From: Baekduia alba
GTDB lineage: Bacteria; Actinomycetota; Thermoleophilia; Solirubrobacterales; Solirubrobacteraceae
Direction of reading: 5' to 3'
Assembly (NCBI RefSeq): GCF_028416635.1
Contig: NZ_CP114013.1
Location: 2,232,001-2,296,000, forward strand
DNA length: 64,000 nt
Position numbers and translations under genes: made by a program. The notes under the pieces are model-generated. The model did not search any database, was not told where the DNA came from, and saw nothing but the letters and a program-made list of their open reading frames with translations. Shown here piece after piece: positions 45,076-51,671 of the stretch. Each line of letters begins with the position of its first letter. Positions within the stretch are counted from its first letter, which is position 1.

Positions 45076-47313
45076 GTGTCCCGCGCTCGCCTGCTCGTCC
45101 TCCTCTCGCTGGCCCTCGCGGCCGCCGCGTTGGCCGCCTCCGGGCCCGCCGTCGCCGCCTCGCCCTCGGGCGTCGTGATCTCCAAGCTGCGCACGCGCAC
45201 CGCCGCGTCGCAATACGACGAATACGTGCAGATCACCAACACTGGCGAGACTTCCGCAGACCTCTCCGACTGGCAGCTCTACGACTGCTACACGTCGGGC
45301 GGGACGTCGCGGATCGGCACCGACGGCGACAAGCTCCCGGCCGGGACGACGCTGCCGGCCGGCCAGTCGTTCGTCTTCGGCAAGAACGCCGGCGACTACA
45401 CGGGCACCGCCGACGCGCTCTACAGCTTCCAGGTCAAGGAGGACGGCGGCTTCCAGATCCGCGACGCCGCCGGCACGATCCAGGACGGCGCCGGCGCGGC
45501 CGGGACCGCGTGCGCGGAGGGGACGGCGCTGACGTTCCCGACCACGGGCGACGACTACACCTTCACCCGCGCCGGCGACACCGACGACAACGCCGCCGAC
45601 TTCGGCGCGCCGTCCGGGTCCGCGAACGGGACCGCGTGCGGCACGCCGTGCGCGGCGCCGCCGGCGGTCGCCGCGATCGACGCCATCCAGGGCAGCGGTG
45701 CGACGTCGCCGATGGTCGGCCAGAAGGTCGCGATCACCGGCGTGGTGGTCGGCGTCGACAACCAGCAGGGCGTCAGCAACTACGTCAACCTGGACCCGCG
45801 CCAGGCCGGGATCTACGTCGAGACGCCGACGATCGCGCAGGACACCGACACGCAGACCTCCGAGGGCATCTTCGTCGGCGGCCTGCTCGCGGCCGACCGC
45901 GCGGCGTCGCACGTCGGCCAGACCGTGACGGTCACCGGCACGGTGACCGAGCTGTACAACCTGACGACGCTCGACGCCTCGGGTCAGGCGCCGCTGTTCA
46001 CCGGCACGGCCAAGGTCGCCAACCTGCCCGCGCCGGTCACGATCGACCCCGCCTCCGCGGCGGCCCAGACCGTAGCGGCCAACGGCACGCGCCCGTACTA
46101 CGAGACGCTCGAGGGCATGCGCGTCGCGCTGGCGTCCGGGACCGCGAACTCCGGCGGCACCGACAAGTTCGGCGAGCTCTTCCTGCAGCCCGCCGCCGCG
46201 CGCAAGCGCATCATGCGCGACCCGGCGACGCCCGTCGGGCCGCCCAACCTCCTCGACCTGGGCCAGGACGCCGGCTCGGCCGACGTCGACCCGACCGCGC
46301 CGTCGGCGACGCCGACGTCGACGACCCGCGTCAAGGGCGACCTGTTCGACAAGGTCACCGGCGCGGTCGGCCCGCTTGGCTTCTCGTTCTCCGAGTACCA
46401 GCTCCAGCCCCAGCCCGGCCAGCGGCCGACGGTCGTCAAGGGCGCGACCACCTACCCGCCGGCCGCGCCCGAAGGCGGCGCCGGCACGCTGCGGATCGCC
46501 AACTTCAACATGGAGAACCTGTTCGGCGCCGGCATGACCGACGACGGTCACACGTTCACCCAGGCCGACGTCGACACCAAGACCACGCGGTTGGCCAACG
46601 CCATCAAGCTGCTCCACAAGCCGGAGATCCTGGCCGTGGAGGAGGTCGCGTCCGAGGACGCGCTGAAGGAGGTCGCGACCAAGCTCGGCAACTACACGGC
46701 GATCTGGCGGCCGTCGACCGACGCGCGCCACATCGCCGTCGGCTTCCTGGTGCGCGACGGCGTCCAGGTCACCGACGTCCGCCAGCTCGGGATCGACGCG
46801 ACGACCACCGAGTCCGGCTGCCAGGACGCGCCCACCGGGACCAAGCTCTTCGAGCGCCCGCCGCTGCAGATCAGCGTCAAGAAGGGCACCACGCGCTTCA
46901 CGCTGATCGGCAACCACTGGGCCTCGCAGGGCCATCCCGAGCCGTGCCGTCAGGACCAGGCCGCGTTCGTGGCCGGCGCGGTGCGCGACATCGAGCTGTC
47001 CGGCGGCTCCGCGGTGGTCATCGGCGACCTCAACGACTTCGAGGACTCGCCCGCGGTCAGCGGCGACCTCGTGAGCGGCACGACGCTGAAGAACCTGTGG
47101 AAGAAGGCGCCGGCGTCCAACCGCTACTCCTTTGCCTACAACGGCCAGCTCCAGACGCTCGACCACATCCTGATGACCAAGGACCTGTACGCCAAGGCGA
47201 CCGGCCTCCTGTTCGTGCACTTCGACAACGACTACTACGAGCGCAACGAGACGACGGCGCCGACCAAGGTCTCCGACCACGACCCGCCGGTGGCGACGCT
47301 CGCGCTGGGCTAG
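45076..47313 (+). CDS. Secreted nuclease: LTD domain plus endonuclease/exonuclease/phosphatase domain
   Basis: A 745-residue protein starting GTG 45076 with GGGAGG 5 nt upstream. A Sec signal covers residues 1-28. A lamin-tail domain (~30-140) contains 'YDEYVQITNTGETSADLSDW'. An OB-like nucleic-acid-binding middle follows ('GQKVAITGVVVGVDNQQG'). Residues ~470-745 are an EEP nuclease: 'RIANFNMENLFGAGMTDDGH', 'EILAVEEVASEDALKEV', 'LIGNHWASQGHPEPCRQDQ', 'AVVIGDLNDFEDSPAV' and 'KVSDHDPPVATLAL' carry the metal and catalytic residues. This is the ExeM/NucH-like extracellular DNase layout, suited to scavenging DNA phosphate or remodelling biofilm. Confidence 0.9.
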   Translation: MSRARLLVLLSLALAAAALAASGPAVAASPSGVVISKLRTRTAASQYDEYVQITNTGETSADLSDWQLYDCYTSGGTSRIGTDGDKLPAGTTLPAGQSFVFGKNAGDYTGTADALYSFQVKEDGGFQIRDAAGTIQDGAGAAGTACAEGTALTFPTTGDDYTFTRAGDTDDNAADFGAPSGSANGTACGTPCAAPPAVAAIDAIQGSGATSPMVGQKVAITGVVVGVDNQQGVSNYVNLDPRQAGIYVETPTIAQDTDTQTSEGIFVGGLLAADRAASHVGQTVTVTGTVTELYNLTTLDASGQAPLFTGTAKVANLPAPVTIDPASAAAQTVAANGTRPYYETLEGMRVALASGTANSGGTDKFGELFLQPAAARKRIMRDPATPVGPPNLLDLGQDAGSADVDPTAPSATPTSTTRVKGDLFDKVTGAVGPLGFSFSEYQLQPQPGQRPTVVKGATTYPPAAPEGGAGTLRIANFNMENLFGAGMTDDGHTFTQADVDTKTTRLANAIKLLHKPEILAVEEVASEDALKEVATKLGNYTAIWRPSTDARHIAVGFLVRDGVQVTDVRQLGIDATTTESGCQDAPTGTKLFERPPLQISVKKGTTRFTLIGNHWASQGHPEPCRQDQAAFVAGAVRDIELSGGSAVVIGDLNDFEDSPAVSGDLVSGTTLKNLWKKAPASNRYSFAYNGQLQTLDHILMTKDLYAKATGLLFVHFDNDYYERNETTAPTKVSDHDPPVATLALG

Positions 47314-47316
47314 CGG

Positions 47317-48088
47317 CTAGCGGAGGCCGAGCGCGTCGACCCGGCGCGTCACGTAGGGCCCGAGCGTCGCGCTGAACACCGCGGTGAAGTGGTGGATGTC
47401 CTTGTAGGCCAGGGCGCCGCCGATGACCGGGAAGCAGGCGCGCCGGTCGCAGAGCAGCCGCGTGAGGTCGATCGTCCGGACGCCGGGGCGCCGGAGATGG
47501 GCCGCCGCCACCGCCGCCGGGTCGCGCTCCGGCGCACGGGCGCGCGGCTGCGCGCACGCGCGGCCCGCGTCGTGGTGGCGCTCCAGCGCGCGCTCGACGC
47601 AGCCCAGCGTCGTCGTGCGCATCTTGGGGTTGTCGCGCAGCACCAGCACGTGCTTGACCGCGGCCGGCAGCGCGCGCCAGGCGTTGGCATAGCCATTGAC
47701 CTGCGCGCTCCAGCCGGTCGCGCCGTGCGGGACGACGACCGTGCCGCCCGAGTGCTGCACCACGCGACAGGGCGAGTTGTCCATCTTGGGCGCCTGGACC
47801 GGCGTCGGGACGACCGTCCGGCTGAGCTTCGGGTCGCGGCACGTCCGCCGCGGGTCGCGCGCGGCGGCGCCGAAGCAGCGCGGCTTGTGCGCGAGCGTGT
47901 GACCCCCGCAGGGAGACGCGCCCGTCGCGTTCGACCTCGCGCACGAGCAGCGCGGTGACCAGGAACCCCGAGATCACGAAGAACACGTCCACGCCGACGA
48001 ACCCGCCCGGCACCGCGTCCGGCCACAGGTGCCAGCGGACCACGACGGCGACCGCCACGGCGCGCAGCGCCTGGATCTCCTGCCTCAT
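47317..48088 (-). pseudogene. Acyltransferase-3/SGNH protein with a large internal deletion
   Basis: The start (ATG 48086-48088) encodes an acyltransferase-3 N-terminus ('IQALRAVAVAVVVRWHLWPD', 'FVGVDVFFVISGFLVTALL'). After about 60 codons the sequence jumps to the C-terminal SGNH domain in another frame ('CFGAAARDPRRTCRDPKLSR'), which continues to 'YKDIHHFTAVFSATLG' and a stop at 47317. Roughly 350 codons of membrane helices and the SGNH nucleophile block are missing. The surviving SGNH half could be translated from ATG 47784 but would lack its partner. It is a deletion relic of an OafA-type O-acetylase. Confidence 0.75.
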
Positions 48089-48140
48089 CCGGTCCACGCC
48101 AACAACAACGACACGAGGCTCCACGAAGTGCCGCGATAGC

Positions 48141-48749
48141 GTGCAGCGCGTGCCGGACTATCCCTCGTTCGTCAGCGGCCTGCCGATCACCGAGGCGGCG
48201 CTCGAGTTCGCCGCCGGCCGGCACGCCGGCCAGCTGCGCGACGTCGACCACGCGCCGTTCATCCTGCATCCGCTGGAGGTCGCGCATCTGCTGCAGGGCC
48301 GCGACTACCCCGACCACGTGATCGCCGCGGGCGTCCTGCACGACGTCCTGGAGGACACCGACGTCACCCGCGAGGAGCTCGAGGAGCGCTTCGGGGCCGA
48401 GGTCGCCGACCTCGTCGCCGCGGTCTCCGAGCCGCCCGCGGCCGAGGGCACCTACGCCGAGCGCAAGGCGCGGCTGCGCGACGTCGTGGCCGGGGCCAGC
48501 ACCGACGCCGCGGCGGTCTTCGCGGCCGACAAGGTCGCCAAGGCGCGCGAGTTCCGCCTCGGGCTCGTCAGCCACGGGGACTCGGCGGCCGCCGTCGACC
48601 GCGACAAGCTCGACCACTACTGGGCCTGCCTCGCGCTGCTCGAGCGCCGTCTCGGCCCGCAGCCGCTCGTCCGGCAGCTGCGCTTCGAGCTCGAAGCCCT
48701 CGCGCTGCTGCCGCCGAGCATGGGCCAGCCGGCCGACCCGTCGCGCTGA
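48141..48749 (+). CDS. HD domain hydrolase, RelA/SpoT-like N-terminal domain
   Basis: A ~202-residue protein starting at GTG 48141 or 48150. It has a standalone HD domain: 'LEFAAGRHAGQLRDVDHAPF', 'HVIAAGVLHDVLEDTDVTRE' (the HD pair plus ED) and 'ADKVAKAREFRLGLV'. These are the metal-binding and substrate blocks of ppGpp hydrolases and small alarmone hydrolases. There is no synthetase domain. It may hydrolyse (p)ppGpp or a related nucleotide. It is divergent from the broken acyltransferase. Confidence 0.85.
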   Translation: MQRVPDYPSFVSGLPITEAALEFAAGRHAGQLRDVDHAPFILHPLEVAHLLQGRDYPDHVIAAGVLHDVLEDTDVTREELEERFGAEVADLVAAVSEPPAAEGTYAERKARLRDVVAGASTDAAAVFAADKVAKAREFRLGLVSHGDSAAAVDRDKLDHYWACLALLERRLGPQPLVRQLRFELEALALLPPSMGQPADPSR

Positions 48750-48855
48750 CAGCGATGCGCACGATTGCGCACAGATGCTCAACGTCACGCCTCTAGAGAC
48801 CGCGCGAAAACGCTAGCACGCGCCCGGCCGGCGGGCGTACAGTCGGCGGCAGGCC

Positions 48856-49557
48856 ATGGCGACCCTCGGCATCACCCTGTTGGGTCTCGGAGGACCGATG
48901 GTGCTCACCGGCGTCATCCGGGAGTCGTCGTCGCCGACGGCCGTCGCGGTCATCGTGCTGGGGTCGCTGATGCTCGTGCTCGGCGCCAGCGCGCGCACCG
49001 TCCCGATGACCTTCACCGAGATCAAGTTCGGCTGGGCCACCGCGAAGATCGACACGCGCGACGCCGACTTCACGCACTTCTACCGCGAGCACCGCTCCGC
49101 GCTGCTGCACTTCGCCGTGCTGATCTCCGGTGGTGCCCAGGAGGGCCAGGCGCTCCTGCGCGAGGCCGCGGCCCGCACGCGGCTGAACTGGAGCCATGGC
49201 GCGTCGGAGGAGCCCGTCGTCGCCACCGCGCGCACGATCCTGCACTGGGTCGAGAGCCCGGGCGTCTGGTCGCTGCTCGTCGTGCCCGAGCAGCGCCGGC
49301 GACGCTGGGAGCGCGGCCCGGCCGAGGAGCCGCTGCCCAGCGCGTTCGAGCGGCCCGGCGCGGTCGCGGCGTTCGCCCGCCTGCCGTTCCCGTGCCGTGC
49401 CGCGTTCCTGCTCGACGGCATGCTCGGGCTCGGCGATCACGACGTCGCCACGCTGCTCGGCCTCGCCGACGACGCCGAGGCGCACCGGCTGATGGCCGCC
49501 TCGGGGCAGGAGGTGCGCGCGGCGCTCGCCGGGCCGTCCGAGGCGCCGGCGTGCTGA
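48856..49557 (+). CDS. Membrane-anchored sigma-factor-like protein
   Basis: A 233-residue protein starting ATG 48856. Residues ~1-47 form two membrane helices ('TLGITLLGLGGPMVLTGVI' and 'VAVIVLGSLMLVLGASA'). The rest resembles a degenerate ECF sigma factor: 'FTHFYREHRSALLHFAVLIS' matches region 2 (FYRxHR), and 'RLPFPCRAAFLLDGMLGLG' plus 'VATLLGLADDAEAHRLM' match region 4, but the basic recognition helix is eroded. The start of the next gene overlaps by 7 nt. It may sense envelope signals rather than initiate transcription. Family assignment moderate. Confidence 0.7.
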   Translation: MATLGITLLGLGGPMVLTGVIRESSSPTAVAVIVLGSLMLVLGASARTVPMTFTEIKFGWATAKIDTRDADFTHFYREHRSALLHFAVLISGGAQEGQALLREAAARTRLNWSHGASEEPVVATARTILHWVESPGVWSLLVVPEQRRRRWERGPAEEPLPSAFERPGAVAAFARLPFPCRAAFLLDGMLGLGDHDVATLLGLADDAEAHRLMAASGQEVRAALAGPSEAPAC

Positions 49558-50600
49558 GCGACGACGAGGTCCGCGAACGGCTGCGCGCCACCATCCCCGC
49601 GCCGAGCACCGCGGTCGTCATGGCGGCGAAGCAGCGGCGCTGGCGGTGGATGTTCGGCGTCGGCACCGTGGTCGGGCTGACGGCCACCGTCCTGCTGTCC
49701 TACCTGCTGTTCTTCACGCGCTCGGCGATCCGGCCGTTCGCGATCCCGGGCGTGCCGATCGGGACAACGATGCCGGCGGTGAGCGACCTCGAGCTCGACG
49801 CCGCCCGCAGCCGGCTCACCGACAGCAAGCTCTTCGCCTCGTTCGCGGGCCAGTGCGGTGAGCACGACCGGGGCTGCCACGTGCTCGCGCAGCCGATCGC
49901 GGTGGGCGAGCACCTCGACCGCGGGACGACGGTGGAGCTGCCGGTCGGCGGCGCGGTGCTGGACCACGACGGGGCCGCCAAGGGCGGCGGCAAGCCGGGC
50001 GGCGGGACGGGCGGCGGAACCTCGAGCACGGCCACGACGACGACCAGGGTCACGCCCACCGTCGCGGTGCCGGCGGTCGTGGACGCCTCGCTGACCGCCG
50101 CCACGAAGGCGCTGGCCGACGCGGGCCTGCAGGCCGACACCGATCGTCCGTGTCAGGCCTGGGAGACCTGCGTCGTGCAGGAGCAGGATCCGGTGCGCGG
50201 CGCCCGCGCCGCCCGCAGGTCGACCGTCCTCCTGGTGGTGAAGGTCACCAAGGTCGCGGTGCCGGGCGTCGAGGGGATGCCGGTCGATGACGCGAAGGCG
50301 GCGCTCAAGGCGCGGGGGCTGACTCCCGGCTTCGGGCCGGAGGGCGGGACGGTCGTCGAGCGGCAGGAGCCCGCGTCCGGCGCGCTCGTGGCGCCCGAGG
50401 CGACGGTCACCCTCACGCTGGGCGCCGACGACGCCACGACGGACACCGGCACGACGAACACCGGCGGCGGCACGACCGGCACCGGCACCGGCACCGGCAC
50501 CATCAGCAACCCCACGACGACGCCGACCGGGACGAACCGGCCGACGACCCAGCCGTCGTCGTCGAACCCGCCGAGCTCGACGACCCGAACCGCTCCCTGA
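49551..50600 (+). CDS. PASTA-domain membrane protein
   Basis: A 349-residue protein starting GTG 49551, overlapping the sigma-like gene. A ~32-residue cytosolic segment (DDEVRERLRATIPAPSTAVV) is followed by a membrane helix ('FGVGTVVGLTATVLLSYLLF'). Outside lie a divergent PASTA-like unit (~55-125), a Gly/Thr linker and two PASTA repeats (~'VAVPAVVDASLTAATKALAD' and 'VAVPGVEGMPVDDAKAALKA'), then a Thr/Gly/Ser tail. PASTA repeats bind peptidoglycan fragments in Ser/Thr kinases; here no kinase domain is present. With the sigma-like partner it resembles a signal-receptor pair. Confidence 0.8.
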   Translation: MLSDDEVRERLRATIPAPSTAVVMAAKQRRWRWMFGVGTVVGLTATVLLSYLLFFTRSAIRPFAIPGVPIGTTMPAVSDLELDAARSRLTDSKLFASFAGQCGEHDRGCHVLAQPIAVGEHLDRGTTVELPVGGAVLDHDGAAKGGGKPGGGTGGGTSSTATTTTRVTPTVAVPAVVDASLTAATKALADAGLQADTDRPCQAWETCVVQEQDPVRGARAARRSTVLLVVKVTKVAVPGVEGMPVDDAKAALKARGLTPGFGPEGGTVVERQEPASGALVAPEATVTLTLGADDATTDTGTTNTGGGTTGTGTGTGTISNPTTTPTGTNRPTTQPSSSNPPSSTTRTAP

Positions 50601-50612
50601 CCTCGACACGGG

Positions 50613-50630
50613 CGATACCGATCCGTATCG
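50613..50630. promoter_or_regulatory. Dyad CGATAC-N6-GTATCG, probable TetR operator
   Basis: A perfect 6-bp-arm dyad 9 bp before the alcohol dehydrogenase start, in an otherwise plain 39-bp gap. The operon encodes a TetR regulator as its second gene, so autorepression through this site is likely. Confidence 0.6.
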
Positions 50631-50639
50631 TCGCGCCCC

Positions 50640-51671
50640 ATGCGCGCGTTGACCTACGCAGGGCCCCGGCAGCTCGAGTGGCGGGACGCGGACGAGCCGC
50701 GGATCGCGGGCGACGGCGAGGCGATCGTCCGCCATCTCGCGGTCGCGACCTGCGACCTGGACGCGATGATCGTCGGCGGCGTCTCGCCGTTCCCGGCGCC
50801 GTTCACGATCGGGCACGAGGGCGTGGCCGAGGTGCTGGAGGTCGGCGACGGCGTCCGGACGGTCAAGCCCGGCGACCGCGTCCTGGTGCCGTTCCAGATC
50901 AGCTGCGGGACCTGCGGCGCGTGCCGGGCGGGGCGGACCGGCAACTGCGAGGACGTGCCGTTCGCGGCGACCTACGGCTTCGGCTTCGGCCCCGAGAACA
51001 CGACGTGGGGCGGCTTCCTCTCCGACGCGGTCCGGGTGCCGTTCGCCGACGCGATGCTCGTGCCGATCCCGGACGGGCTGGCGCCCGAGATCGCGGCGGG
51101 CGCGTCGGACAACATCACCGACGCCTACCGCACCGTCGGCCCGTACCTCGCCGCGCGGCCGGGCGCGCCGGTGCTCGTCTGCGGCGGCGCGTCGTCGGGG
51201 TCGATCGGGCTCTACGCGGTCGCGCACGCCGTCGCGCTCGGCGCCGACGACGTGCTGTACGTCGACCCGGACGCCGGCCGGCGCGCGATCGCCGAGGGCT
51301 ACGGCGCGCGCACGCTCGACCACGTTCCCGACCAGCTCGACCAGCGCTTCCCGATCACCGTCGACGCGGCCGCGACGACCGCGGGGCTGGCGCTCGCCGC
51401 CGGCAGCCTGGACCGCGACGGCGTGTGCACGAGCACCGCGATCTACTTCGACCCCGACACGATCCCGAAGCTGCCGCTGCTGCAGATGTACGTGTTGGCC
51501 TCGACGTTCGTCACCGGCCGCATCCACGCGCGCCGCGACGCGCCGGCCGTGCTCGACCTGCTCGCCGCCGGCACGCTCGACGTCGCGCCCGTCACGACCC
51601 GGACCGTCGCCTTCGAGGACGCCGCCGACGCGTTGTTGGAGGACTACACCAAGTTGGTGTTCACGCGGTGA
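50640..51671 (+). CDS. Zinc-dependent alcohol dehydrogenase family protein
   Basis: A 343-residue MDR-family enzyme starting ATG 50640. It has 'VATCDLDAMIVGGVSPFPA' (first Zn ligand Cys), 'TIGHEGVAEVLEVGDGVRTV', and four structural Zn Cys in 'CGTCGACRAGRTGNC'. The Rossmann part has 'VLVCGGASSGSIGLYAVAHA', where the usual GxGxxG is slightly altered. The group includes threonine/sorbitol-type dehydrogenases. The stop overlaps the TetR gene (GTGA), so they are co-expressed. Substrate unknown. Confidence 0.88.
   Translation: MRALTYAGPRQLEWRDADEPRIAGDGEAIVRHLAVATCDLDAMIVGGVSPFPAPFTIGHEGVAEVLEVGDGVRTVKPGDRVLVPFQISCGTCGACRAGRTGNCEDVPFAATYGFGFGPENTTWGGFLSDAVRVPFADAMLVPIPDGLAPEIAAGASDNITDAYRTVGPYLAARPGAPVLVCGGASSGSIGLYAVAHAVALGADDVLYVDPDAGRRAIAEGYGARTLDHVPDQLDQRFPITVDAAATTAGLALAAGSLDRDGVCTSTAIYFDPDTIPKLPLLQMYVLASTFVTGRIHARRDAPAVLDLLAAGTLDVAPVTTRTVAFEDAADALLEDYTKLVFTR

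Follow-up and report, generated by a model that had tools for sequence, protein, structure and literature searches.

Within the window (the whole 64,000-nucleotide stretch of Baekduia alba DNA that was analysed), two open reading frames lie on the plus strand and overlap by 7 nt. The first, P0001, extends from 48856 to 49557, starts with ATG and encodes 233 aa, and the second, P0002, extends from 49551 to 50600, starts with GTG and encodes 349 aa. Since third-position GC is 0.96 in both, even along the full length of each and close to that of the neighbouring HD gene (0.95) and ADH gene (0.99), both frames look coding. Comparison with Rfam gave no match within 47200-51200. The features of the locus are listed below.

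48856-49557, plus strand: P0001, two N-terminal membrane helices and a degenerate ECF sigma-like domain at residues ~68-228 (ORF, hydropathy, third-position GC, TIGR02983, own-genome profile with shuffles, single-sequence model)
49057-49170, plus strand: stretch of P0001 assigned to sigma region 2 (residues ~68-105; alignment to 58 same-genome sigma domains)
49360-49539, plus strand: stretch of P0001 assigned to sigma region 4 (residues ~169-228), with the core retained and basic positions 187, 209, 214 and 216 gone (alignment and structure matches)
49551-50600, plus strand: P0002, a ~33-aa predicted cytosolic stub, one helix, three PASTA units and a Thr/Gly/Pro/Ser-rich tail (ORF, Pfam, hydropathy)
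49770-49946, plus strand: PASTA unit 1 of P0002, residues 74-132
50061-50240, plus strand: PASTA unit 2 of P0002, residues 171-230
50253-50423, plus strand: PASTA unit 3 of P0002, residues 235-291
48750-50612, no strand: interval missing from the syntenic site of the same-genus genome G006 (synteny comparison)

Profile searches supported the ECF sigma-like region that the first-pass annotation had read in P0001. The NCBIfam model TIGR02983 (SigE family) matched residues 67-204 at E=3.6e-8, with a score of 33.4 bits against a curated cut-off of 141.55, a shortfall that says little because no sigma factor of the same genome reaches this cut-off either. A profile built from 30 same-genome sigma factors gave P0001 28.4 bits, and one built from 58 same-genome sigma domains gave 32.4 bits, compared with 11.8 bits for the best of 2000 shuffles and at most 4.7 bits for any other of the 366 ORFs of the window; a chance match was ruled out by these two controls. 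In addition, direct matches between P0001 and ordinary SigE-type sigma factors of other actinobacterial lineages went down to 1.4e-10. Pfam gave nothing significant for P0001, the best match being the PhyR sigma-like family (13.6 bits against a cut-off of 27, E=0.058).

A sigma fold, whose absence would have spoken against the first-pass annotation, was also looked for in an AlphaFold2 model of P0001 made from the single sequence. The mean pLDDT of this model is low (46 overall and 52 for the soluble part), with region 4 mostly at ~66-85 and region 2 at low confidence. When the model was used in a structure search, sigma region 4 domains headed the list with Z up to 8.7, and in Foldseek the model spanned a full sigma factor weakly, the assignment of region 2 resting on sequence. 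Given the NCBIfam profile, the own-genome profile with its controls, the direct SigE-type matches and the region 4 structure matches, we regard the homology of P0001 to ECF sigma factors, from region 2 to region 4, as firm.

Hydropathy analysis of P0001 showed hydrophobic segments at residues ~3-21 and ~26-46, which bears out the proposed fusion of two N-terminal membrane helices to the sigma-like region, and the positive-inside rule would put the sigma-like region in the cytosol. None of the 58 resident sigma factors compared has a clear N-terminal helix. Neither Pfam nor NCBIfam matched a zinc-finger, DUF2275 or other anti-sigma domain on the anchor, or a receiver domain anywhere in P0001. 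ECF sigma factors fused to membrane helices have been published, namely IutY (ECF243), ECF48/52/53 and ECF36; their fusions sit either at the C-terminus or, with three to four helices and DUF2275, at the N-terminus, and these proteins act after proteolysis, as shown for IutY and predicted for the others (PMC8999054). The earlier statement that the pair has no described equivalent is therefore not supported, all the more as an ECF gene with an overlapping one-helix partner is routine in this genome and in the phylum. For the combination of an ECF protein with a PASTA protein, no description was found in the literature covered, a body of work outside which the main ECF reclassification lies.

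In ECF sigma factors, the motifs of regions 2.2 and 4.2 make the contacts to RNA polymerase and to the -35 element. The corresponding positions of P0001 were compared by aligning it to the 58 same-genome sigma domains, an alignment that is uncertain at residues ~113-160; own-genome counts of sigma factors and partners were drawn from 70 loci around sigma matches. The basic columns proved strongly depleted in P0001, with 2 of 9 kept, the lowest value of the 59 proteins compared (mean 6.5 and minimum 3 for the 58 resident sigma factors). The hydrophobic core columns were mostly kept, 27 of 34 or 79%, against a mean of 93% and a minimum of 85% for the resident ones. In region 2.2, the position that is acidic in 57 of the 58 resident sigma factors is A99, the position occupied by Gln in 40 of them is R102, and the RNA polymerase contact motif (D..QE) is absent as such with E103 retained. 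Region 4 has D187, A209, A214 and S216 where most resident sigma factors have Arg or Lys, and among the conserved residues E103, R181 and D196 are still present. Judged at the level of sequence, P0001 has likely lost sigma (promoter) activity.

These losses bear on whether P0001 could be a working ECF sigma factor that stays tethered to the membrane until a wall signal leads to its release by proteolysis, in the manner of IutY and of the predicted ECF48/52/53 and ECF36 members. Such proteins have been described (PMC8999054), both sigma regions of P0001 are recognisable, and an anchor together with a partner would suit regulated release. However, none of the 58 resident sigma factors shows a comparable loss of contact residues in regions 2.2 and 4.2, and the anchor comes without a recognised anti-sigma, zinc-finger or DUF2275 domain, and we consider this explanation improbable. 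A separate ECF-like protein, encoded at L146 (G000:C1:4444500-4448500), carries a long C-terminal extension with a likely membrane segment and is second lowest in basic contact positions (3/9).

The partner gene agrees with its earlier description as a frame overlapping by 7 nt that encodes a stub, one helix and PASTA units without a kinase: ORFs, hydropathy and Pfam all point the same way. After the ~33-aa N-terminal stub, hydropathy places the helix of P0002 at residues ~37-55, the Pfam PASTA domain is matched at E=8.3e-21, and three PASTA units are recognised. Cys pairs lie at 102/109 and 201/207, and no kinase domain of P0002 was matched by Pfam. From the distribution of charges, we infer that the stub lies inside and the PASTA units outside. 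PASTA ectodomains of PknB bind muropeptides (PMC3145798). The PASTA units suggest that the pair may sense the cell wall. A PADLOC match of P0002 to PD-T4-6 was set aside, as it covered nothing beyond the PASTA region (residues 162-296).

Among the other PASTA genes of the genus that were examined, none has a convincing sigma-like neighbour; an ORF overlapping the PASTA gene at L102 gave a weak sigma-profile match (0.0004), the only one above noise. The proteins encoded at L102 (G000:C1:2206000-2213500) and at L101 (G001) are large and combine PASTA units and one helix with a Cys-rich motif, and the G001 copy runs on into a repeat-like outer region.

The arrangement of the two genes is not new. 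In the same genome, a gene for a partner with a stub, one helix and an extracytoplasmic part lies directly after at least 17 other ECF genes and overlaps 16 of these 17, and SigE-type sigma factors elsewhere in the phylum share this layout, often with a 4-nt overlap. Thus, the arrangement of P0001 and P0002 is that of a standard ECF-plus-membrane-partner operon. The stub of P0002 resembles the resident partner stubs weakly, 39 of 1000 stub shuffles scoring as high, and true partner stubs, left out one at a time, vary as much in score as it does. What is unusual in the pair is the loss of charged contacts on a mostly kept core, the two-helix N-terminal anchor and the PASTA outer part.

The two proteins could also make up an envelope scaffold, a structural complex for wall anchoring whose sigma-like domain is a docking module without a link to transcription. 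The PASTA units and the Thr/Gly/Pro-rich tail suit wall contact, the anchor would hold the P0001 domain at the membrane permanently, and P0001 has lost the residues that make transcription contacts. Nevertheless, the ECF-type operon layout points to a signalling ancestry, and we give such a scaffold little likelihood, noting that no result here separates it from sigma mimicry.

The first-pass annotation had let its reading depend on conservation of the pair, and this was not seen: no homologue was found in the genus, family, order or class samples. With P0001 as query, no anchored relative appeared in 7 genomes of the genus, 146 of the family, 232 of the order and a class sample of 399, and in a phylum sample of 396 genomes no match reached beyond the sigma part, with the exception of a single weak one containing a stop. 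The class and phylum matches that were examined are ordinary ECF sigma factors and not anchored pseudo-sigmas. Contig scans with P0001 and with P0002, which detect close relatives only, gave no relative either. Orthologues were also sought through the N-terminus of P0002, giving weak matches in 24 of the 146 family genomes (its own included); those examined are unrelated membrane or other proteins.

The same-genus genome G006 retains the nuclease-HD-ADH-G6PDH block, with protein identities of 69-85%; there, 48 bp separate the HD gene from the ADH gene, and the pair is missing between them. Since the pair is absent everywhere else searched, a gain here is favoured over a loss in G006, although one comparison cannot tell. 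No terminal repeats or target-site duplication were recognised at the inserted interval. In a phylogenetic tree, P0001 fell among SigE-type sigma factors of other lineages (93/91) and not with the 58 resident ones. Import from outside the lineage is suggested by this placement, and no more than suggested, because the branch of P0001 is very long and the outside rows of the tree were picked for their similarity to P0001.

Two further observations concern the flanks of the pair. On the minus strand at window 47317-48124 lie an N-terminal fragment of an acyltransferase-3 and a C-terminal fragment of an SGNH protein, the middle apparently missing; this remnant is missing from the syntenic site of G006, where ~80 bp separate the nuclease gene from the HD gene. 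On the other side, a palindrome, CGATACCGATCCGTATCG, lies at window 50613-50630, just upstream of the ADH gene (50640), and is kept in G006 as CGATACAGACCTGTATCG (L190:2547-2564). A TetR-like regulator is encoded immediately downstream of ADH (ORF ending 52282), and the palindrome is possibly its operator.

Given this distribution, we considered that an acquired ECF pair may be drifting without function in one lineage. The absence of the pair from all relatives searched and from the syntenic site of G006 fits such decay, as do the very long branch of P0001 and the acyltransferase remnant in the neighbouring interval, likewise missing from G006. Set against it, both frames are intact with third-position GC of 0.96 throughout, and P0001 retains most of the hydrophobic core of the sigma fold and P0002 all three PASTA units although the charged contacts have gone, which is unlike plain drift. 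We hold decay to be less likely than not, but a serious rival of our preferred reading: as no homologue of the pair shows the residue pattern being kept by selection, decay and new function look alike here.

Of the overall interpretation first proposed for this locus, the degenerate ECF sigma on two helices beside a kinase-less PASTA protein stands, whereas conservation and the want of a described equivalent do not. Most likely, P0001 and P0002 represent an acquired or remodelled SigE (TIGR02983-like) ECF operon. Our preferred reading, held tentatively at a probability of roughly 0.45, is that of a derived SigE-type ECF operon whose sigma factor is now a membrane-bound pseudo-sigma acting by protein contact. 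The sigma gene would have gained a two-helix N-terminal anchor and shed the residues with which ECF sigma factors hold promoter DNA and RNA polymerase, regions 2 and 4 retaining their hydrophobic framework, and P0001 would thereby have become a membrane-resident pseudo-sigma. P0002 would correspond to the one-helix partner that such operons usually encode, its outer domain here consisting of PASTA units, and we infer that its stub docks on the sigma-like domain of P0001, as anti-sigma stubs do. The PASTA units may follow peptidoglycan or its precursors, and the bound state may set whether the sigma-like domain is free for a third partner, for example the anti-sigma of another ECF sigma factor; none was identified for P0001. 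P0001 would then act by protein contact, as sigma mimicry or scaffold, and not by starting transcription. As a whole this mechanism is a weakly supported proposal. Points against it are the weak resemblance of the P0002 stub to partner stubs, the conserved residues still present in P0001, a core retention under that of every resident sigma factor, and the low confidence of the region 2 model together with the uncertain stretch of the alignment. Its most specific form, in which a PASTA sensor sets the availability of the membrane-bound pseudo-sigma, so that the state of the peptidoglycan, with neither kinase nor receiver, directly drives titration of another ECF sigma factor's anti-sigma, appears quite unlikely.

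The pair is of interest chiefly if it is expressed and kept. If functional, it would show an ECF sigma factor that serves no longer as a transcription subunit but as a membrane-bound module for binding proteins, linked to a receptor that binds the wall and distinct from the known case of PhyR, and would extend the outer domains of ECF partner proteins to PASTA. If decaying, it would be an ordinary instance of the turnover seen in the numerous ECF operons that these actinobacteria carry.

Compared with SigE-family (TIGR02983) operons, the pair shares the short overlap with a downstream partner made of a stub, one helix and an outer domain, and differs in that this outer domain is PASTA. P0001 is homologous to the SigE-family sigma factors in regions 2 and 4, but has lost contact residues, carries an N-terminal anchor and scores far under the family cut-off. 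Like IutY, ECF48/52/53 and ECF36, it has a sigma domain that is covalently tied to membrane helices, and as in ECF36 the extension is N-terminal; unlike all of these, it has two helices, no recognised anti-sigma part and a degenerate sigma domain. The sigma-like domain of PhyR, in the EcfG/NepR switch, binds an anti-sigma and not promoters (PMC8999054). The match of P0001 to the PhyR profile is weak and lies below its cut-off, and binding of an anti-sigma by the sigma-like domain, a feature of PhyR, is only proposed for P0001, which in contrast is membrane-anchored, without a receiver domain and with no NepR-type partner identified. Finally, P0002 resembles the PASTA kinases of the PknB/StkP type in its single helix and external PASTA units, and differs from them in that its cytosolic part is a ~33-aa stub in place of a kinase domain.
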